A stretch of 37,565 bases of DNA from Nitrosomonadales bacterium (GTDB lineage: Bacteria > Pseudomonadota > Gammaproteobacteria > Burkholderiales > Nitrosomonadaceae): contig VFJL01000038.1 of assembly GCA_009886095.1 (NCBI GenBank), forward strand, positions 1-37,565, written 5' to 3'. Positions 25,250 to 32,900 of the stretch are shown here, one piece after another. A program made the translations under genes and the position numbers. Position 1 is the first letter of the stretch. Each line of letters begins with the position of its first letter. Below the pieces are notes generated by a model that was not told the DNA's origin, ran no database searches, and saw only the letters and a list, made by a program, of their open reading frames with translations.

Positions 25250-25459
25250 TTAAGAAATATCAATTTTTCTATGGCTTGATACACAATCTCGCAGATAAAG
25301 ATTTATGAGGCTCTGATACGGGACACCCTTTTCATCAGCCATTTGTTTGAAATAGCCAATAACATCTTCACTCAACCGCATCGTGACGGATTTTTTGAGC
25401 CTAGCCGCATAAGGATTTTTGCGGGATTTCATTTTTGACAGATCGTATTCAGTTTTCAT
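25250..25459 (-). CDS. brnA: BrnA-like ribbon-helix-helix antitoxin
   Basis: The 69-residue protein has a basic N-terminal part and a ribbon-helix-helix motif (KKSVTMRLSEDVIGYFKQMADEKGVPYQSLI). This is typical of BrnA/CopG antitoxins that bind their own promoter. It overlaps brnT by ATGA (25456-25459), so the two are translationally coupled, with toxin first as in known brnTA operons. It is the most distal gene of the integron array. No attC site follows it down to 25118, so its own recombination site is lost or too diverged to see. Confidence 0.85.
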   Translation of the reverse strand: MKTEYDLSKMKSRKNPYAARLKKSVTMRLSEDVIGYFKQMADEKGVPYQSLINLYLRDCVSSHRKIDIS

Positions 25460-25743
25460 GGCCTAACTCCTTGATAATAGGTGCTCTCGTTTTTTGTGGC
25501 TTTTCTTGCCGAGATGATCCGAACAATGTTGCCTTGGTCACGTTCGCAATGACAGACAATAAGAAGGCGTGCTTCATCACTGAAACCAAGCATCAAAAAT
25601 CTTTCTTCTGACACGGAATTATCTGCATCAAAAAATTGCACAGCGAACTCATCGTAAAAGACAGATTGAGCCTCCTCAAACGAAATGCCGTGCTTCTTTT
25701 TGTTCGAGGCCGCTTTGGCTGTATCCCACTCGAATTTAATCAT
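25456..25743 (-). CDS. brnT: BrnT-like ribonuclease toxin
   Basis: The 95-residue protein begins IKFEWDTAKAASNKKKHGISFEEA and ends with the RIISARKATKNE motif, both diagnostic of BrnT toxins, which are RelE-like ribonucleases that stop translation. The ATG is at 25741-25743. A sigma-70 promoter with its -10 only 7 nt before the ATG implies an almost leaderless transcript. The gene lies 37 bp inside the cassette that starts at attC3. A self-promoting toxin-antitoxin module at the distal end of an array fits the known tendency of such modules to stabilise integrons. Confidence 0.88.
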   Translation of the reverse strand: MIKFEWDTAKAASNKKKHGISFEEAQSVFYDEFAVQFFDADNSVSEERFLMLGFSDEARLLIVCHCERDQGNIVRIISARKATKNESTYYQGVRP

Positions 25744-25745
25744 GA

Positions 25746-25777
25746 ATACATTGTATGTACGCTAAATAAATTGTCAA
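25746..25777 (-). promoter_or_regulatory. brnTA promoter with overlapping palindromic operator
   Basis: On the minus strand the -35 TTGACA (25772-25777) and -10 TACAAT (25750-25755) are separated by 16 bp. A perfect 11-bp palindrome (ATACATTGTAT, 25746-25756) covers the -10 and is a good site for BrnA autorepression. The expected transcript start lies at or beside the brnT ATG. Confidence 0.75.
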
Positions 25778-25780
25778 GAA

Positions 25781-25843
25781 GCCCAACGTAAAAGTGAGGG
25801 GCTGCGCGCTTTTACAGCGTCGCACTCGAATGAAAGGTTGGGC
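25781..25843 (-). other. Integron recombination site attC3 (63 bp)
   Basis: Read on the cassette (minus) strand it runs from R'' GCCCAAC (25837-25843) to R' GTTGGGC (25781-25787). The interior is an imperfect hairpin with the GCGCGC region near its tip. It borders the brnTA cassette. Confidence 0.8.
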
Positions 25844-25955
25844 TGTTTTATAATTAAAAACGATTAAGTATAAAATCGATCGAGTCCGATCCCATTGATA
25901 CTGCGACCCCATGGTGGAGGTGGATTCTAATTCCAAGTGCACCACTGTTTAGAAT

Positions 25956-26159
25956 TTAAGCGGACATGATGAGTACTGCCGGGTCGAAGGCCGATGCGCC
26001 TTCGATGTCATTTTTGTAGCGTGCATGAAAGGCGGAAAGATCAAGTTCTTGATCGACCAGATGGCATAACGCGTATTCAAAACTGCCGGGAATAACTTGC
26101 CGTTCAAAGTCTACCGGCAGTAGTTTTAAGCCTTTGTGTATCGGTTTGAATCGCGCCAT
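25956..26159 (-). pseudogene. Truncated transposase fragment (N-terminal 60 residues)
   Basis: The 67-codon frame reads MARFKPIHKGLKLL...FDPAVLI and then ends MSA-stop. The first ~64 residues match what I know as the N-terminus of a common IS1182/DUF772-type transposase of several hundred residues; the rest is missing. It sits inside the integron array between attC2 and attC3, so an insertion sequence probably entered a cassette and was later mostly deleted. It cannot make a working transposase. The surrounding 25844-26244 holds no other gene I can support. Confidence 0.75.
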
Positions 26160-26244
26160 GTCGCATCCATTTTAGTTGCATTTCGTAATGGAATTATGGC
26201 AGATCAAGAGGTGATTTTTTAAGCAAATTTTGGTTTTTCTACAG

Positions 26245-26310
26245 CCTCAACGTGGAGTTGAGGCGCCTGCGCGGCTTTTCGCGCAGGTCGCCTCGAACGC
26301 AGGGTTAGAG
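26245..26310 (-). other. Integron recombination site attC2 (66 bp)
   Basis: On the minus strand it runs from R'' CTCTAAC (26304-26310) to R' GTTGAGG (26245-26251). The interior folds into a hairpin pairing GAGGCG-A-CCTGCGCG with CGCGCAGG-CGCCTC, with one extrahelical base as expected for attC. It starts one base after the stop codon of the unknown cassette gene. Confidence 0.88.
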
Positions 26311-26311
26311 G

Positions 26312-27385
26312 TCATATGCATAGCAATTGCTTCAGGTCTAGTAGCTCGTCTTCACTGAGGCGCGAGAATAGATCGTTGGTCAGGTCAAATGTGAATTCGA
26401 TGGTCCCGTCGGGTGAAGGCTCCCCACGTGCCGAAAGCGCAGACCACAGAAGGGCCATCGGTCTATCACACGTACACAGTGAGAATGCCTCCTGTTTAAA
26501 GTAGGCTTGACCAGCAATCGCCAACTCGATATGGCGTAGATCGCTGAGAGCGTTGAATGCGTCAGCCTCTGAATATGTCTCGCTGGGTTTGAGTATCCGC
26601 CTTCCTACGGCAGGTGTTGTGCCATGCATATCCTCGTATAGGCACGAGAGAACCGCGAGATTAGCTAGCGAAGCGCGGTTCAGTTCGTATTTGTCGGCGG
26701 TTCTTACGATGGTCTCGGCCACCTCGGCTTCCGTACGGCGTGGGACTCGCTGTACGACTAGAGGACAGGCTGCTTGTAGAAACTTGGTTTCGCGCTCGTT
26801 GCGTTCGTCGAAGGCTTCTAGTTGAGCATATGCAGCTCGGTAGTGGGTGTCCTCAAACTTTACGATGTGACATTTCGGTAGTGCATCACGTAATTCAGAT
26901 GCTCCTTCGTCGAACGCCGACACGAACTCTGCCATGGTGGGCTTTCGGCGGTATCCGGCCTCAAACGCATATGGGAGCGGATTAAACATTCCCGACCCCT
27001 CGGCAAAGAAGTTGGTCCACCACTGTAGTGCTTGAGCGTTTGCGGCAACCTTGCCCTCGCGTATCTTGCGCAATGAGATGACAACATTGCGATCCACCAA
27101 GAAGCGTGCTGGTATCGCAAACGGCAAGGGCAGCCAACCGCCACGAACAAGTGCAAAGATCGTGGTCGGATTATTGAATGCCACCTTTGTCTTTACGGTG
27201 GCTCGGCCGGGCGACGCAGCTCCATCAACAATTGCATTTTCGCCTTCAAGCGTCAGTTCGAGAGCTGAGGTCTCGTCTTCCTCTAGCTTACGGATTCCGT
27301 CTGCTCCAAGCGGGTAAATGAATGTTGGAACGATATCGATGCTCCGGCCTTCTTCAAATTCGGCGCGAAATGAGAACGGACCCAT
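26312..27385 (-). CDS. Unrecognised integron-cassette protein, possibly PIN-like
   Basis: I do not recognise this 357-residue protein. The stop codon is one base from attC2 and the ATG at 27385 is 12 bases from attC1, so it fills a compact cassette. The central to C-terminal pattern resembles PIN-type ribonucleases: FLVDRNVV (D98) as the first strand and acid, ALSDLRHIELAI near residue 285, and FSLCTCDRPMALLW with D307, like the T-x-D strand of PIN domains. The N-terminal ~90 residues are beta-rich, a pattern not typical for PIN toxins. The length is also two to three times that of a VapC toxin. Nuclease function is therefore inference only. There is no visible ribosome site, so expression may depend on a cassette promoter. 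Confidence 0.7.
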   Translation of the reverse strand: MGPFSFRAEFEEGRSIDIVPTFIYPLGADGIRKLEEDETSALELTLEGENAIVDGAASPGRATVKTKVAFNNPTTIFALVRGGWLPLPFAIPARFLVDRNVVISLRKIREGKVAANAQALQWWTNFFAEGSGMFNPLPYAFEAGYRRKPTMAEFVSAFDEGASELRDALPKCHIVKFEDTHYRAAYAQLEAFDERNERETKFLQAACPLVVQRVPRRTEAEVAETIVRTADKYELNRASLANLAVLSCLYEDMHGTTPAVGRRILKPSETYSEADAFNALSDLRHIELAIAGQAYFKQEAFSLCTCDRPMALLWSALSARGEPSPDGTIEFTFDLTNDLFSRLSEDELLDLKQLLCI

Positions 27386-27397
27386 GGGCCAAATGAC

Positions 27398-27457
27398 CTC
27401 TAACGCTCGGCATCAGCGGCGGCGCATAGCGCCGTCCGCTGCATGCTGTTGTTGGGC
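27398..27457 (-). other. Integron recombination site attC1 (60 bp)
   Basis: On the minus strand it runs from R'' GCCCAAC (27451-27457) to R' GTTAGAG (27398-27404) with an imperfect hairpin in between. Its R'' is the exact complement of the GTTGGGC at attI, as expected for the first cassette, and its R' is the complement of the R'' of attC2. It starts 4 bases after the nuclease stop codon. Confidence 0.9.
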
Positions 27458-27461
27458 GGCA

Positions 27462-28124
27462 TCACCGATCCTTCTTCCCTTGGTTGCACTTTCGGCACAG
27501 GGCCTGGAGATTTGTGATGTCGTTCTTTCCGCCCCTCGCCACGGCAACGACATGATCAACTTCGAGTTCGACGGAGTGGTCATTCGACGGCGCTGCTCCG
27601 CACTTCGCGCACCGATAGTTGTCCCGCTTCAGCACCGCCCACCTGACGTTCAGCGGAATTGTCTCGCGAACAGGGCGGGCTGCGTTCCCCGCAAGGAGCT
27701 GCTCCCGCGACATCCGGCCTTCATGAAACGCTGCCAGCGCCTCACAAGCCCCGCGAACACTGCCCCAATAGCGCTTGTACGGTGTCTCCGAGATTCGATT
27801 GCCGAGCTGTTTGATCTGCCGCTTGCCTGGAGGGTATCCAAGCTCCTTCCAGACCAATTCAAGGTTTTCGATCAGCTGGGCAGGCGCGTGTCGCCGTTCC
27901 CTTCCCCCGTCGATTCCGATCAGGGCGAGGGCTTTCTTCCACGATCCGAAGCGCTCGATGATCGTCGAAGAGTGGGGCCGCTTTCCGGGAAGCTCGTCGT
28001 ACCGAGTTGAAGGGAAGTACTCCTTACCCAGAGCCTCCGCAGCTGATTCCAGGGCCTGCATGAGCTCTTCGTCGGCAAGACGAGTCCGCTTCGCTTGGAG
28101 GTCAAATTTGAATCGCTCGCTCAC
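27462..28124 (-). CDS. HNH endonuclease with homing-endonuclease-associated repeats (integron cassette 1)
   Basis: The C-terminal ~50 residues form an HNH nuclease: CAKCGA, EVDHVVAVARGGKNDITNLQ and CRKCN, with two CxxC pairs for zinc and the catalytic DH and Asn. Upstream are two HNH-associated helical repeats, IIERFGSWKKALALIGI and RYWGSVRGACEALAAF, which bind DNA in homing-type and phage nucleases. The frame is open to 28184, but it then crosses the attI core. I prefer the GTG at 28122-28124, with AGGAG ten bases upstream, giving 220 residues wholly inside the cassette. Role unknown: anti-phage nuclease or selfish element are both possible. Confidence 0.85.
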   Translation of the reverse strand: MSERFKFDLQAKRTRLADEELMQALESAAEALGKEYFPSTRYDELPGKRPHSSTIIERFGSWKKALALIGIDGGRERRHAPAQLIENLELVWKELGYPPGKRQIKQLGNRISETPYKRYWGSVRGACEALAAFHEGRMSREQLLAGNAARPVRETIPLNVRWAVLKRDNYRCAKCGAAPSNDHSVELEVDHVVAVARGGKNDITNLQALCRKCNQGKKDR

Positions 28125-28142
28125 CGTGACACGTCTCCTGCC

Positions 28143-28201
28143 GCCCAACGTAATATATACGACATCAATTGTCCAATAATCCACTTCATGTGTCGTATAA
28201 T
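28143..28201. other. Integron attI region with core site and inverted repeat
   Basis: The core GTTGGGC (minus strand, 28143-28149) is the junction with the first cassette. A 9-bp perfect inverted repeat (TATACGACA at 28156-28164, TGTCGTATA at 28191-28199) lies between it and intI and overlaps a perfect TATAAT (28196-28201), a candidate -10 for intI; its -35 is poor. On the minus strand TTGGAC and TATTAC with 15-bp spacing could serve the cassettes, but weakly. Confidence 0.75.
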
Positions 28202-28264
28202 CATAACTTGAATTATATATCCTATTGCTTTAAATGATTAAAGAGTAAAACAAAAGGACGGGTC

Positions 28265-29257
28265 ATGCCAATAACTACGACATCATCGCCAGCCAGGAAA
28301 TTGCTGGATCAGGTGCGCGACAAGATTCGTTTCAAACACTATAGCTTAAGCACGGAAAATACTTATGTATCCTGGATTAAGCAATACATTCTGTTTAATG
28401 GCAAGCGTTATCCGGCAGAAATAGGTGCGGCTGAGGTGGAGGCGTTTTTAACTTATCTGGCTACCGAGCGTCATGTGTCCAGCTCTACCCAGAATCAGGC
28501 GCTGTCGGCAATCCTGTTTTTGTATCGTGAGGTACTGGCACTGGATTTGCCGTGGCTGGATGGTTTTGAGCGTTCTAAAAAGCCACGTCGTTTGCCGGTG
28601 GTGTTGACGCAGCTTGAGGTGCAAGCCTTGCTGCGAGAGGCGGCATCGGCACCGGAGCCAGTCGGGTTGATCATTAAATTATTGTACGGTACCGGCATGC
28701 GTTTGATGGAAGCGGTACGTTTGCGGATCAAGGATGTAGAGCTGGCGCGCAGGGAAATTATCGTGCGTGATGGCAAGGGCGGTAAAGACCGGATAACCAT
28801 GTTGCCGGATAGTCTGGTGGAAGCGATGCGTTTGCAGCTTGCGTTGCGTCGCCAATGGCATGAACAGGATGTTGTGCTGGGCAAAGTGAATGTCTGGCTG
28901 CCGGATGCGCTGGCGGTCAAGTATCCGAATGCGGCAAAAGAGTGGGGCTGGCAATATGTGTTTGCCGCCAGAAATTATTCCATTGATCCGCGTAGTAAAG
29001 CAGAGCGCCGCCATCATGTCGAAGAAAAGCAGGTGCAACGCTATGTTAAAAAGGCGGCGTTGGCGGCGGGCATCGCCAAACCAACTTCGCCGCATACCCT
29101 GCGTCACAGCTTTGCCACCCATGTTTTACAAGCTGGTTACGATATTCGTACGGTGCAGGAATTACTGGGGCATAGCGATGTGGCGACAACGATGATCTAC
29201 ACCCATGTGCTGAACAAGGGTGGGCGTGGAGTGGTCAGTCCGCTGGATGCGTTGTGA
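28265..29257 (+). CDS. intI: Integron integrase (tyrosine recombinase)
   Basis: The 330-residue protein is a tyrosine recombinase with all catalytic residues: R146 (GTGMR), K171, H277 and R280 (HTLRHSF), H303 (LGHSD) and Y312 (MIYTHV). To my knowledge these are the positions used in IntI1. The extra segment LPDALAVKYPNAAKEWGWQYVF (~212-233) is the IntI-specific insertion that distinguishes integron integrases from XerC/XerD and is needed to bind single-stranded attC hairpins. It inserts and excises cassettes at attI. The ATG has AAAGGACGG just upstream. It diverges from the cassette array, the standard integron layout. No truncation is seen, so it is likely functional. Confidence 0.96.
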   Translation: MPITTTSSPARKLLDQVRDKIRFKHYSLSTENTYVSWIKQYILFNGKRYPAEIGAAEVEAFLTYLATERHVSSSTQNQALSAILFLYREVLALDLPWLDGFERSKKPRRLPVVLTQLEVQALLREAASAPEPVGLIIKLLYGTGMRLMEAVRLRIKDVELARREIIVRDGKGGKDRITMLPDSLVEAMRLQLALRRQWHEQDVVLGKVNVWLPDALAVKYPNAAKEWGWQYVFAARNYSIDPRSKAERRHHVEEKQVQRYVKKAALAAGIAKPTSPHTLRHSFATHVLQAGYDIRTVQELLGHSDVATTMIYTHVLNKGGRGVVSPLDAL

Positions 29258-32315: not shown

Positions 32316-32900
32316 TTGCTCGCCACAGAAGGCGTGCTCGTTCGGAGAGTGGCTAGCTATAAAATAGACTTTTCAGGGACAGACCCATTTCGATCCGGTT
32401 TGAAAGTGAAACGAGGCATGAAGAATGAATGCCGCAGGTAACGCATACTCCCACGAGGATTTCCTTCGAGGCGAATAGGGATAGTGCGGCCAGGCGCGAG
32501 TGAGGATATCAATGAAGTATCATCCTAACCCGGCAGTTGACCGCTCATTTTTTAATTTAACGCCATAACACATAGCACATAGTAATTTTTTGCAGTATTT
32601 GGCCTTCACCTTTTGGGTGAATTTGCTACCGGGCAGATTGCACGGTTTTTGCGGCACATGGCTGCGTTGTAACTTCTTGGAATGGAACAACCATTCCGCG
32701 TCGTTGTGCCTTGCCCTGCACCCCAGAAACCGCACACTCTACCCCGTCCAGCTGCCGGGTTTAGGATCACTGATGAAATGTGATCGAAACAACTGGCAGC
32801 GCTCTGGAGAAAAATATTTCCCCCGGTTTACCTCCATTCTCCATTCCCTTGTATTGTGAGTTGTACCATCACAACAGTCGTGCCCCCCATTTGAAAAATA

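Follow-up and report, generated by a model that had tools for sequence, protein, structure and literature searches.

Organization of the locus

The window, that is the whole 37,565-nucleotide stretch of DNA analyzed here, comes from a fragmented genome assembly (81 contigs) and carries an integron integrase gene diverging from a short cassette array, in the order fecCD - array - attI - intI - ubiC. The attC sites were sought in the window and in L002 with a covariance model built from 44 sites, none of them from this genome. The features are the following (coordinates, strand, identity, evidence):

28265..29257, plus strand: intI, integron integrase, 330 aa, intact (TIGR02249, 2a3v alignment, motifs)
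28143..28202, minus strand: attI, cleavage core GTT at 28149-28147 (conserved in relatives; 19-mer)
27404..28148, minus strand: cassette 1, HNH protein and attC1, 745 bp (ORF, end complementarity, G003 homologue)
27398-27457, minus strand: attC1, the weakest of the three sites (34.0 bits, E 1.6e-6)
26251..27403, minus strand: cassette 2, 357-aa protein and attC2, 1153 bp (ORF 26312-27385, G212 block, end complementarity)
26244-26310, minus strand: attC2, its last four bases from an IS end (40.7 bits, E 3.4e-8)
25968..26248, minus strand: IS1182-family remnant, left end and first 64 transposase codons (left ends elsewhere, transposase identity)
25916..25975, plus strand: IS30-like element, left end, interrupting the IS1182-family remnant (match on contig C17 of G000)
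25781-25843, minus strand: attC3, remainder of the destroyed third cassette (53.5 bits, E 2.3e-11)
25250..25786, minus strand: BrnT (25456-25743) and BrnA (25250-25459, with its stop at 25250), last cassette, without attC (PF04365, PF12441, PF14384)

An intact tyrosine recombinase, an attI beside its gene and attC sites in array orientation are the elements of a complete integron, and the earlier note, which had proposed a complete chromosomal integron from the letters alone, was right in this. All three attC sites that it listed were found by a model trained on other genomes, the check it had suggested; the model called no further attC in the window up to E = 10. We regard the locus as almost certainly a small, complete chromosomal integron that has a fixed place between the genes fecCD and ubiC of a Nitrosomonadaceae-like host, with two captured cassettes and a third wrecked by insertion sequences. 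Sedentary chromosomal integrons are recognized by a conserved location, which is found here (the flanks are common to G001, G006 and G007), and by a large array, which is not (three attC sites).

The attI and the 5' end of the same intI lie between fecCD and ubiC in G001, G006 and G007, and these three sister genomes carry other cassettes at this place; in G002, fecCD lies directly beside ubiC. G001 and G006 have cassettes X (97.6%) and Y (96.9%) in common, in different order, and no main-locus cassette is common to G000 and any of the three. The cassettes thus change between relatives at genus level, as the earlier note had expected of an active integron. The attI is also kept in five relatives (L007-L010, L012), each with a different sequence after the GTT, i.e., a different first cassette. 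A genome-wide search for its 19-mer ATGTCGTATATATTACGTT, with up to three mismatches allowed, gives two matches, both exact, one here and one on contig C72 (818-836), where a second attI has a truncated intI of its own. A consensus promoter scan called no promoter-like site at attI that could represent the cassette promoter Pc.

An intact integrase in a lineage prone to lose it

IntI scores 458.9 bits against the NCBIfam model TIGR02249 'integron integrase' (cut-off 265), and its 330 codons contain no internal stop, confirming the earlier impression of an apparently intact gene. The solved structure 2a3v, also an integron integrase, aligns with its residues 14-329, and IntI carries the motifs GMRLME (at 144), RSKAERRHHVEEKQVQR (243), HTLRHSF (277) and LLGHSDVATTMIYTHV (300), presumably in their usual roles. 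Compared with G008 over 78 codons, the gene shows seven synonymous and no non-synonymous changes, and its dN/dS against three relatives is 0.10, 0.14 and 0.18; judging from these substitutions, intI is under purifying selection.

One alternative is that the array dates from a formerly active integrase and no longer changes, intI being intact by chance or through recent replacement. At the same locus, intI is cut to about 30 codons in three of the eight same-genus relatives (G001, G006 and G007), and therefore the lineage tends to lose activity; the truncated gene at the second attI on C72 points the same way, as does the lack of any LexA-box-like site (at most one mismatch) upstream of intI, which leaves LexA/SOS control of the gene without support. 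Against such a frozen relic stand the full length of intI and the purely synonymous differences from G008, and we find this reading possible, though clearly the less probable one. We favor an IntI that may still be active today and might act on the second attI (contig C72) as well. Turnover of cassettes at a fixed site across the genus, with the integrase truncated in three or more of the sister genomes, makes a useful natural series.

Two cassettes captured whole

The array holds two complete cassettes and not more. Read on the minus strand, the cores are as previously noted: attI GTTGGGC (28149-28143) is complementary to the R'' of attC1 (GCCCAAC), and the R' of attC1 (GTTAGAG) to the R'' of attC2 (CTCTAAC). 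Within each cassette, complementarity between start and end exceeds the 7-nt core, reaching 11 nt in cassette 1 and 12 nt in cassette 2, which supports the earlier claim that both were inserted as circles. Such extended complementarity is a general property within cassettes (to position 12) and is at background level between neighbours. We dropped it as a novelty, since a range of 9-11 nt is already stated in PMC2727003.

Cassette 1 encodes an HNH protein (P0002, ORF 27462-28130, PF01844 and PF18780); in G003, a homologous gene likewise precedes an attC of its own (L161:2817-2895). For cassette 2, a homologous block in G212, a genome of another bacterial family, is 88% identical over 1134 bp, and its first base, 27403, directly follows the cleavage point G|TT, so that the exact cassette boundary is visible in an unrelated genome. 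Its attC2 shares 97% identity over 60 bp with the attC that ends another cassette in G006 (contig C52). The 357-aa product (P0003) matches no Pfam family, and its PDB profile matches, with designed Tet4 proteins and RAD51 at the top, indicate no function; the fold predicted from the single sequence is unusable (mean pLDDT 39.9), and no relatives were found in viral contigs. A PIN-like nuclease, an idea based on conserved acidic residues, received no support from any search.

The suggestion that the array is a defence-oriented set is unsupported, as it comes down to generic HNH-domain matches and a common toxin-antitoxin pair. The matches of P0002 to 16 PADLOC families all fall in its HNH domain (REase_II at residues 153-220 being the best, E 2.1e-8), and the other five proteins match none.

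A third cassette wrecked by insertion sequences

The third cassette is wreckage, because the R' of attC2 (GTTGAGG) holds the end of an IS1182-family element rather than a cassette core, and this element is in turn broken by an IS30-like end. The cassette history that was thought traceable therefore ends at attC2. The left end of the IS1182-family remnant adjoins the GTT of attC2, 13 other loci have a similar left end in the identical position, and 56 of the 64 transposase residues are identical to the full-length transposase of L198. Alone, the remnant (67 aa) matches the IS1182 family model at E 0.048; this 67-aa ORF (P0004) had been a candidate third cassette gene and was rejected on recognition of the IS end. 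The second end, whose element we take to be of the IS30 type, matches, at 59 of 60 positions, the stretch that precedes a transposase ORF on contig C17 of G000.

The nuclease and 357-aa protein cassettes of the original description are whole, and its toxin-antitoxin pair lacks an attC of its own, none being called after BrnA. The BrnTA DNA is 86% identical to L057 in a match that stops at 25784, 3 nt from the core G, and has its own promoter-like site (25777-25750).

In the established mechanism of integrons, IntI recombines the bottom strand of attC, folded on itself, with attI, and the circular cassette is thereby taken in at that site. In the history that we propose, IntI would have captured two cassettes as circles at attI. 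An IS1182-family element targeting the crossover triplet GTT would have inserted at attC2, destroying the third cassette, and would then have been broken by the IS30-like element and mostly deleted, leaving attC3, in what seems the likeliest order of the IS events. A BrnTA cassette that lost its attC would close the array.

IS1182-family elements at attC sites

The integron itself is a further example of an ordinary, already known kind; the part of interest, and the result of more weight, is the insertion sequence. Among 20 loci found by transposase similarity, elements of this group adjoin a model-called attC at the crossover triplet in 16. The triplet is duplicated (GTT or AAC on both sides) in 10 of the 12 copies with both ends visible, and the elements, with the end sequence GAGGCTGTAGAAAAAC, have terminal inverted repeats. 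Counting against such targeting, no attC was called at the IS end in L203, L210 and L212, even with filters off and up to E = 10; L205 shows a weak one (E 0.47 at 11.3 bits), and for Pseudoalteromonas the site was judged by eye only. The group matches Pfam DUF772 and DDE_Tnp_1 and the NCBIfam IS1182 model, the latter at 277.1 bits for the full-length L198 transposase (cut-off 270) and below cut-off, at 189.5 bits, for a shorter copy in L071. The element in attC2 is thus not of the IS110/IS1111 type with a DEDD transposase.

We consider it likely that an IS1182-family clade, known here from 13 genera of the order and probably extending to Pseudoalteromonas, has attC as its specific target, its members inserting in both orientations at the IntI crossover GTT of R' and duplicating 3 bp. 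It would represent an attC-specific DDE class, unrelated to the RNA-guided IS1111-attC group, that caps or scrambles arrays as at attC2. The target is probably recognized as a folded attC hairpin, because IS1182-family members are reported to prefer stem-loops: PMC5678879 describes stem-loop targets for IS1272 and the IS1182 family. IS1272 shares with our element the transposase family and a palindromic target; as described there, it replaces the stem-loop without duplication, whereas here attC is kept and the GTT doubled.

That the element instead came in through IntI, as part of a cassette, might be read from its position exactly between two GTT cores, but this is very improbable: no attC is called at the right end of forward copies, both orientations occur (14 forward, 6 reverse), and the inverted repeats and repeated triplet speak for the element's own transposition.

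Our literature search found no report of attC targeting by IS1182, and the attC-targeting elements named there belong to the unrelated IS1111 group. Among these, ISKpn4 and ISPst6 insert at one end of cassette attC sites according to PMC11187229, much as our group does, with a DEDD transposase and a guide RNA where we find an IS1182-family DDE transposase, terminal inverted repeats and triplet duplication. If true, the clade shapes integrons by capping or scrambling arrays, and attC targeting has arisen independently in an RNA-guided and in a DDE transposase family that are unrelated to each other. Hairpins of attC would then serve mobile DNA generally as landing sites and would contribute to the decay of integron arrays.

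Comparison with known integrons

The Xanthomonas ilvD integrons, as described in PMC12444791, are similar in having a fixed site, an ancestral platform, frequent intI loss, variable cassettes and attC clusters elsewhere; the present integron instead lies at fecCD/ubiC, in a genome that carries a further attI beside a truncated intI.

The closest IntI proteins (81-84%) come from a Methylobacter MAG and three genomes of Nitrosomonas. At E <= 1e-60, only one of the eight same-genus relatives, G007, has a match, of 62% and on another contig. A recently arrived mobile integron, which this distribution could suggest, was rejected on synteny and is very improbable, given the shared fecCD/ubiC position in G001, G006 and G007 and the absence of transposon or plasmid families among nine neighbouring proteins scanned (one without any family match); we retain the resident integron. 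Chromosomal integrons of Nitrosomonas were reportedly described by Leon and Roy in 2003. Those of the three Nitrosomonas genomes resemble ours in IntI and in the same attI inverted repeat, and differ in their first cassettes. The host itself looks like a genus other than Nitrosomonas, to judge from GroEL (86-89%).

The Integron and Its attC Sites

The earlier reading of this locus as a complete chromosomal integron proves sound, if modest as an example, with a full-length intI, attI and three attC sites, and it finds parallels in the Xanthomonas chromosomal integron case (PMC12444791) and in the intI pseudogenes that arose by intragenomic duplication (PMC2426708).

28265-29257, plus strand: intI, full length (TIGR02249, 458.9 bits; cut-off 265)
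28143-28202, minus strand: attI
27404-28148: cassette 1
27398-27457, minus strand: attC1
26251-27403: cassette 2
26245-26310, minus strand: attC2
25781-25843, minus strand: attC3

Residues 14-329 of IntI can be aligned to the solved integron integrase 2a3v. The genome amounts to 2.11 Mb in 81 contigs, of which the window is one entire contig (C78). Its GroEL is 89% identical to that of Nitrosomonas aestuarii, 86-88% to those of four further Nitrosomonas genomes and 88% to that of a Sulfuritalea MAG; being near Nitrosomonas yet also near the latter, the host is probably best described, from this sequence comparison, as a Nitrosomonadaceae-like betaproteobacterium.

Palindromic sites near the intI genes of relatives were gathered into a list of 59; 44 of them, all taken from genomes other than the host's, were aligned to build a covariance model for attC. 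Searched against the window and one further locus (L002) at E ≤ 10, the model returned four sites, namely attC1, attC2 and attC3 of the window, all thereby recovered, and one on contig C72. Over the whole genome it called 14 sites at E ≤ 1 (10 at E < 1e-4), and since these spread across seven contigs (C72, C3, C45, C78, C31, C60 and C65), attC sites are scattered over the genome. On C45 (L121, 4848-5380), one good attC precedes two degenerate attC-like copies, and repeats of GGGGCCAGG type lie alongside.

A Second attI and the Locus in Relatives

With up to three mismatches permitted, the 19-base attI core has two places in the genome, both exact: the window and C72 (L119, 177-836). The intI adjoining the second attI is cut at codon 57 (C72:548-715, residues 2-57, 89% identity), next to an RNase P RNA gene. 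The C72 cassettes differ from those of the window, the first encoding a 198-aa ORF that has no Pfam match.

Aligned with five other loci (L007, L008, L009, L010, L012), the attI region consists of a TATACGACAT-like arm, 23-24 bases, then ATGTCGTATA(T/C)ATTACGTT; the latter carries one or two changes in some of these loci, the downstream sequence differs in each, and a sixth (L011) aligns poorly. The inverted repeat TATACGACAT / ATGTCGTATA is conserved among Nitrosomonas relatives, and possibly represents IntI binding sites. The 60 bp of attI recur in two sister genomes (G001:C23 and G006:C52; 58/60 and 56/59 identical), where they precede a different, decayed integrase start (L159 2300-2600, L160 2040-2300); attI and intI have been reshuffled there.

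Among eight same-genus relatives, G001, G006 and G007 hold attI and about 30 intI codons between fecCD and ubiC, G002 has fecCD directly adjoining ubiC, and G003 retains a 42-bp intI piece beside ubiC. In G008, which is split over contigs, an identical IntI is represented by its final 78 codons, at a contig end; G004 and G005, which are 74% and 51% complete, yielded no match at the DNA level. At this locus, the arrays of G001, G006 and G007 hold none of the window's cassettes; G001 and G006 have two cassettes in common, in a different order. The earlier note had taken changing cassettes between strains as a sign of activity, an expectation that the comparison of these three genomes bears out at the level of the genus. 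Further along the window (32394-32767), between ubiD and a ribonucleotide reductase gene, lies a dispersed repeat with dozens of copies in the genome and genus.

Cassette Contents and Origin as Circles

The cassette 1 protein combines an HNH domain with homing-endonuclease-associated repeats and has relatives (E ≤ 1e-12) in 10 of the 399 genomes searched from the order, its own included; the homologous gene in G003 is followed by its own attC. The 357-aa protein of cassette 2 matched no known family, and its relatives are confined to 3/399 genomes, again with its own (E ≤ 1e-5). In a genome of another family (G212), the cassette 2 block recurs at 88% identity over 1134 bp with a dN/dS of 0.18 between the two gene copies. 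It starts at window position 27403, the first base past the cleavage point, ends within attC2, and in G212 has an attC just upstream. L057 carries a BrnT/BrnA copy of 86% DNA identity; the similarity ends at 25784, at a distance of 3 nt from the attC3 core G. Ahead of BrnT (25750-25777) lies a near-consensus promoter, TTGACA-16-TACAAT (11/12 positions).

Only an origin as a free circle should make the complementarity of a cassette's start with its own end reach beyond the core. Across 122 non-redundant cassettes from 36 loci, start and end matched at positions 8-12 with frequencies of 0.64, 0.59, 0.54, 0.45 and 0.39, and by position 13 the value was down to 0.20. For comparison, pairing a cassette with others gave 0.20-0.32 within one locus, 0.25-0.39 where the core was shared, and 0.26-0.34 between neighbours (93 pairs). 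Permutation z-scores ranged from 8.8 to 3.9 (131 cassettes), and a second sample, 49 cassettes in 14 loci called genome-wide by the model, gave 0.67, 0.67, 0.67, 0.51, 0.41, then 0.10. The proposal that the first two cassettes were inserted as circles is upheld, their starts and ends being complementary over 11 nt (cassette 1) and 12 nt (cassette 2). As the part of PMC2727003 consulted already states that self-pairing reaches 9-11 nt, this extended complementarity confirms known biology.

Cassette 3 has no such match (1/5), because IS1182-family sequence occupies the bases after the attC2 GTT. These read GAGGCTGTAGAAAAACC. The 67-aa ORF that comes next agrees, at 56/64 of its first 64 residues, with a full-length IS1182-family transposase of 507 aa. 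A related element occupies the same attC point in a Nitrosomonas sp. locus (L071; GTT[GAAGATGTAGAAAAACC ... GTTTTTCTACATCCTC]GTTAGCC), as does the left end of another in a Zoogloeaceae locus (L026). The remnant is itself cut by 60 bp that elsewhere in the genome form the left end of an element whose transposase is IS30-like.

An IS1182 Group at attC Sites

The L071 transposase, searched against the 399 genomes at E ≤ 1e-60, matched 20 places in 16 genomes. At 16 of these places a model-called attC (E 1.5e-11 to 0.015) lies directly against the element, with its R' triplet in contact with the IS end, in forward orientation in 14 (11 scored by script; L207, L211 and L217 added from attC calls and end sequences) and in reverse in two (L201, L202); L217 has ATT instead of GTT. 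The remaining four (L203, L205, L210, L212) have the triplet AAC at the IS, whose end shows no attC call at E ≤ 1. When the filters were switched off and the limit raised to E = 10, a weak site of 11.3 bits (E 0.47) appeared against the IS in L205 and none at the IS end in L203 or L210; L212, whose right end is missing, carries an attC at another point of the locus. Where both ends are visible, the same triplet stands on either side in 10 of 12 places (6 GTT, 4 AAC), the other two, L204 and L214 of a single genome, having GTT/GTC.

This unexpected yield of the analysis suggests an IS1182 group that would seek attC sites. The association describes a clade and not the whole IS1182 family, since the L071 query was itself taken from an attC. 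No attC at E ≤ 1 lies within 2.5 kb of five remoter transposases (25-35% identity), which were hand-picked among 1206 matched records; for one of them the alignment spans just 22% of the query. ISs of the IS1111 group that target attC are already published (PMC11187229, in part), and the accessible text of PMC5678879 reports that IS1272, of the IS1182 family, replaces stem-loops and that some IS1182 members target palindromes. We found no report of IS1182 targeting attC in the papers and listed titles covered, in part as excerpts; one of these papers names IS1182 solely as a table entry. Subscription papers and ISfinder lie outside this coverage, and the novelty of the group is therefore provisional.

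A plasmid collection yielded two Pseudoalteromonas copies at 42-43% identity, whose visible ends, two in L218 and one in L219, carry GTT. In L218 the element is preceded, as judged by eye, by a long VCR-like attC that goes uncalled by the short-site model.
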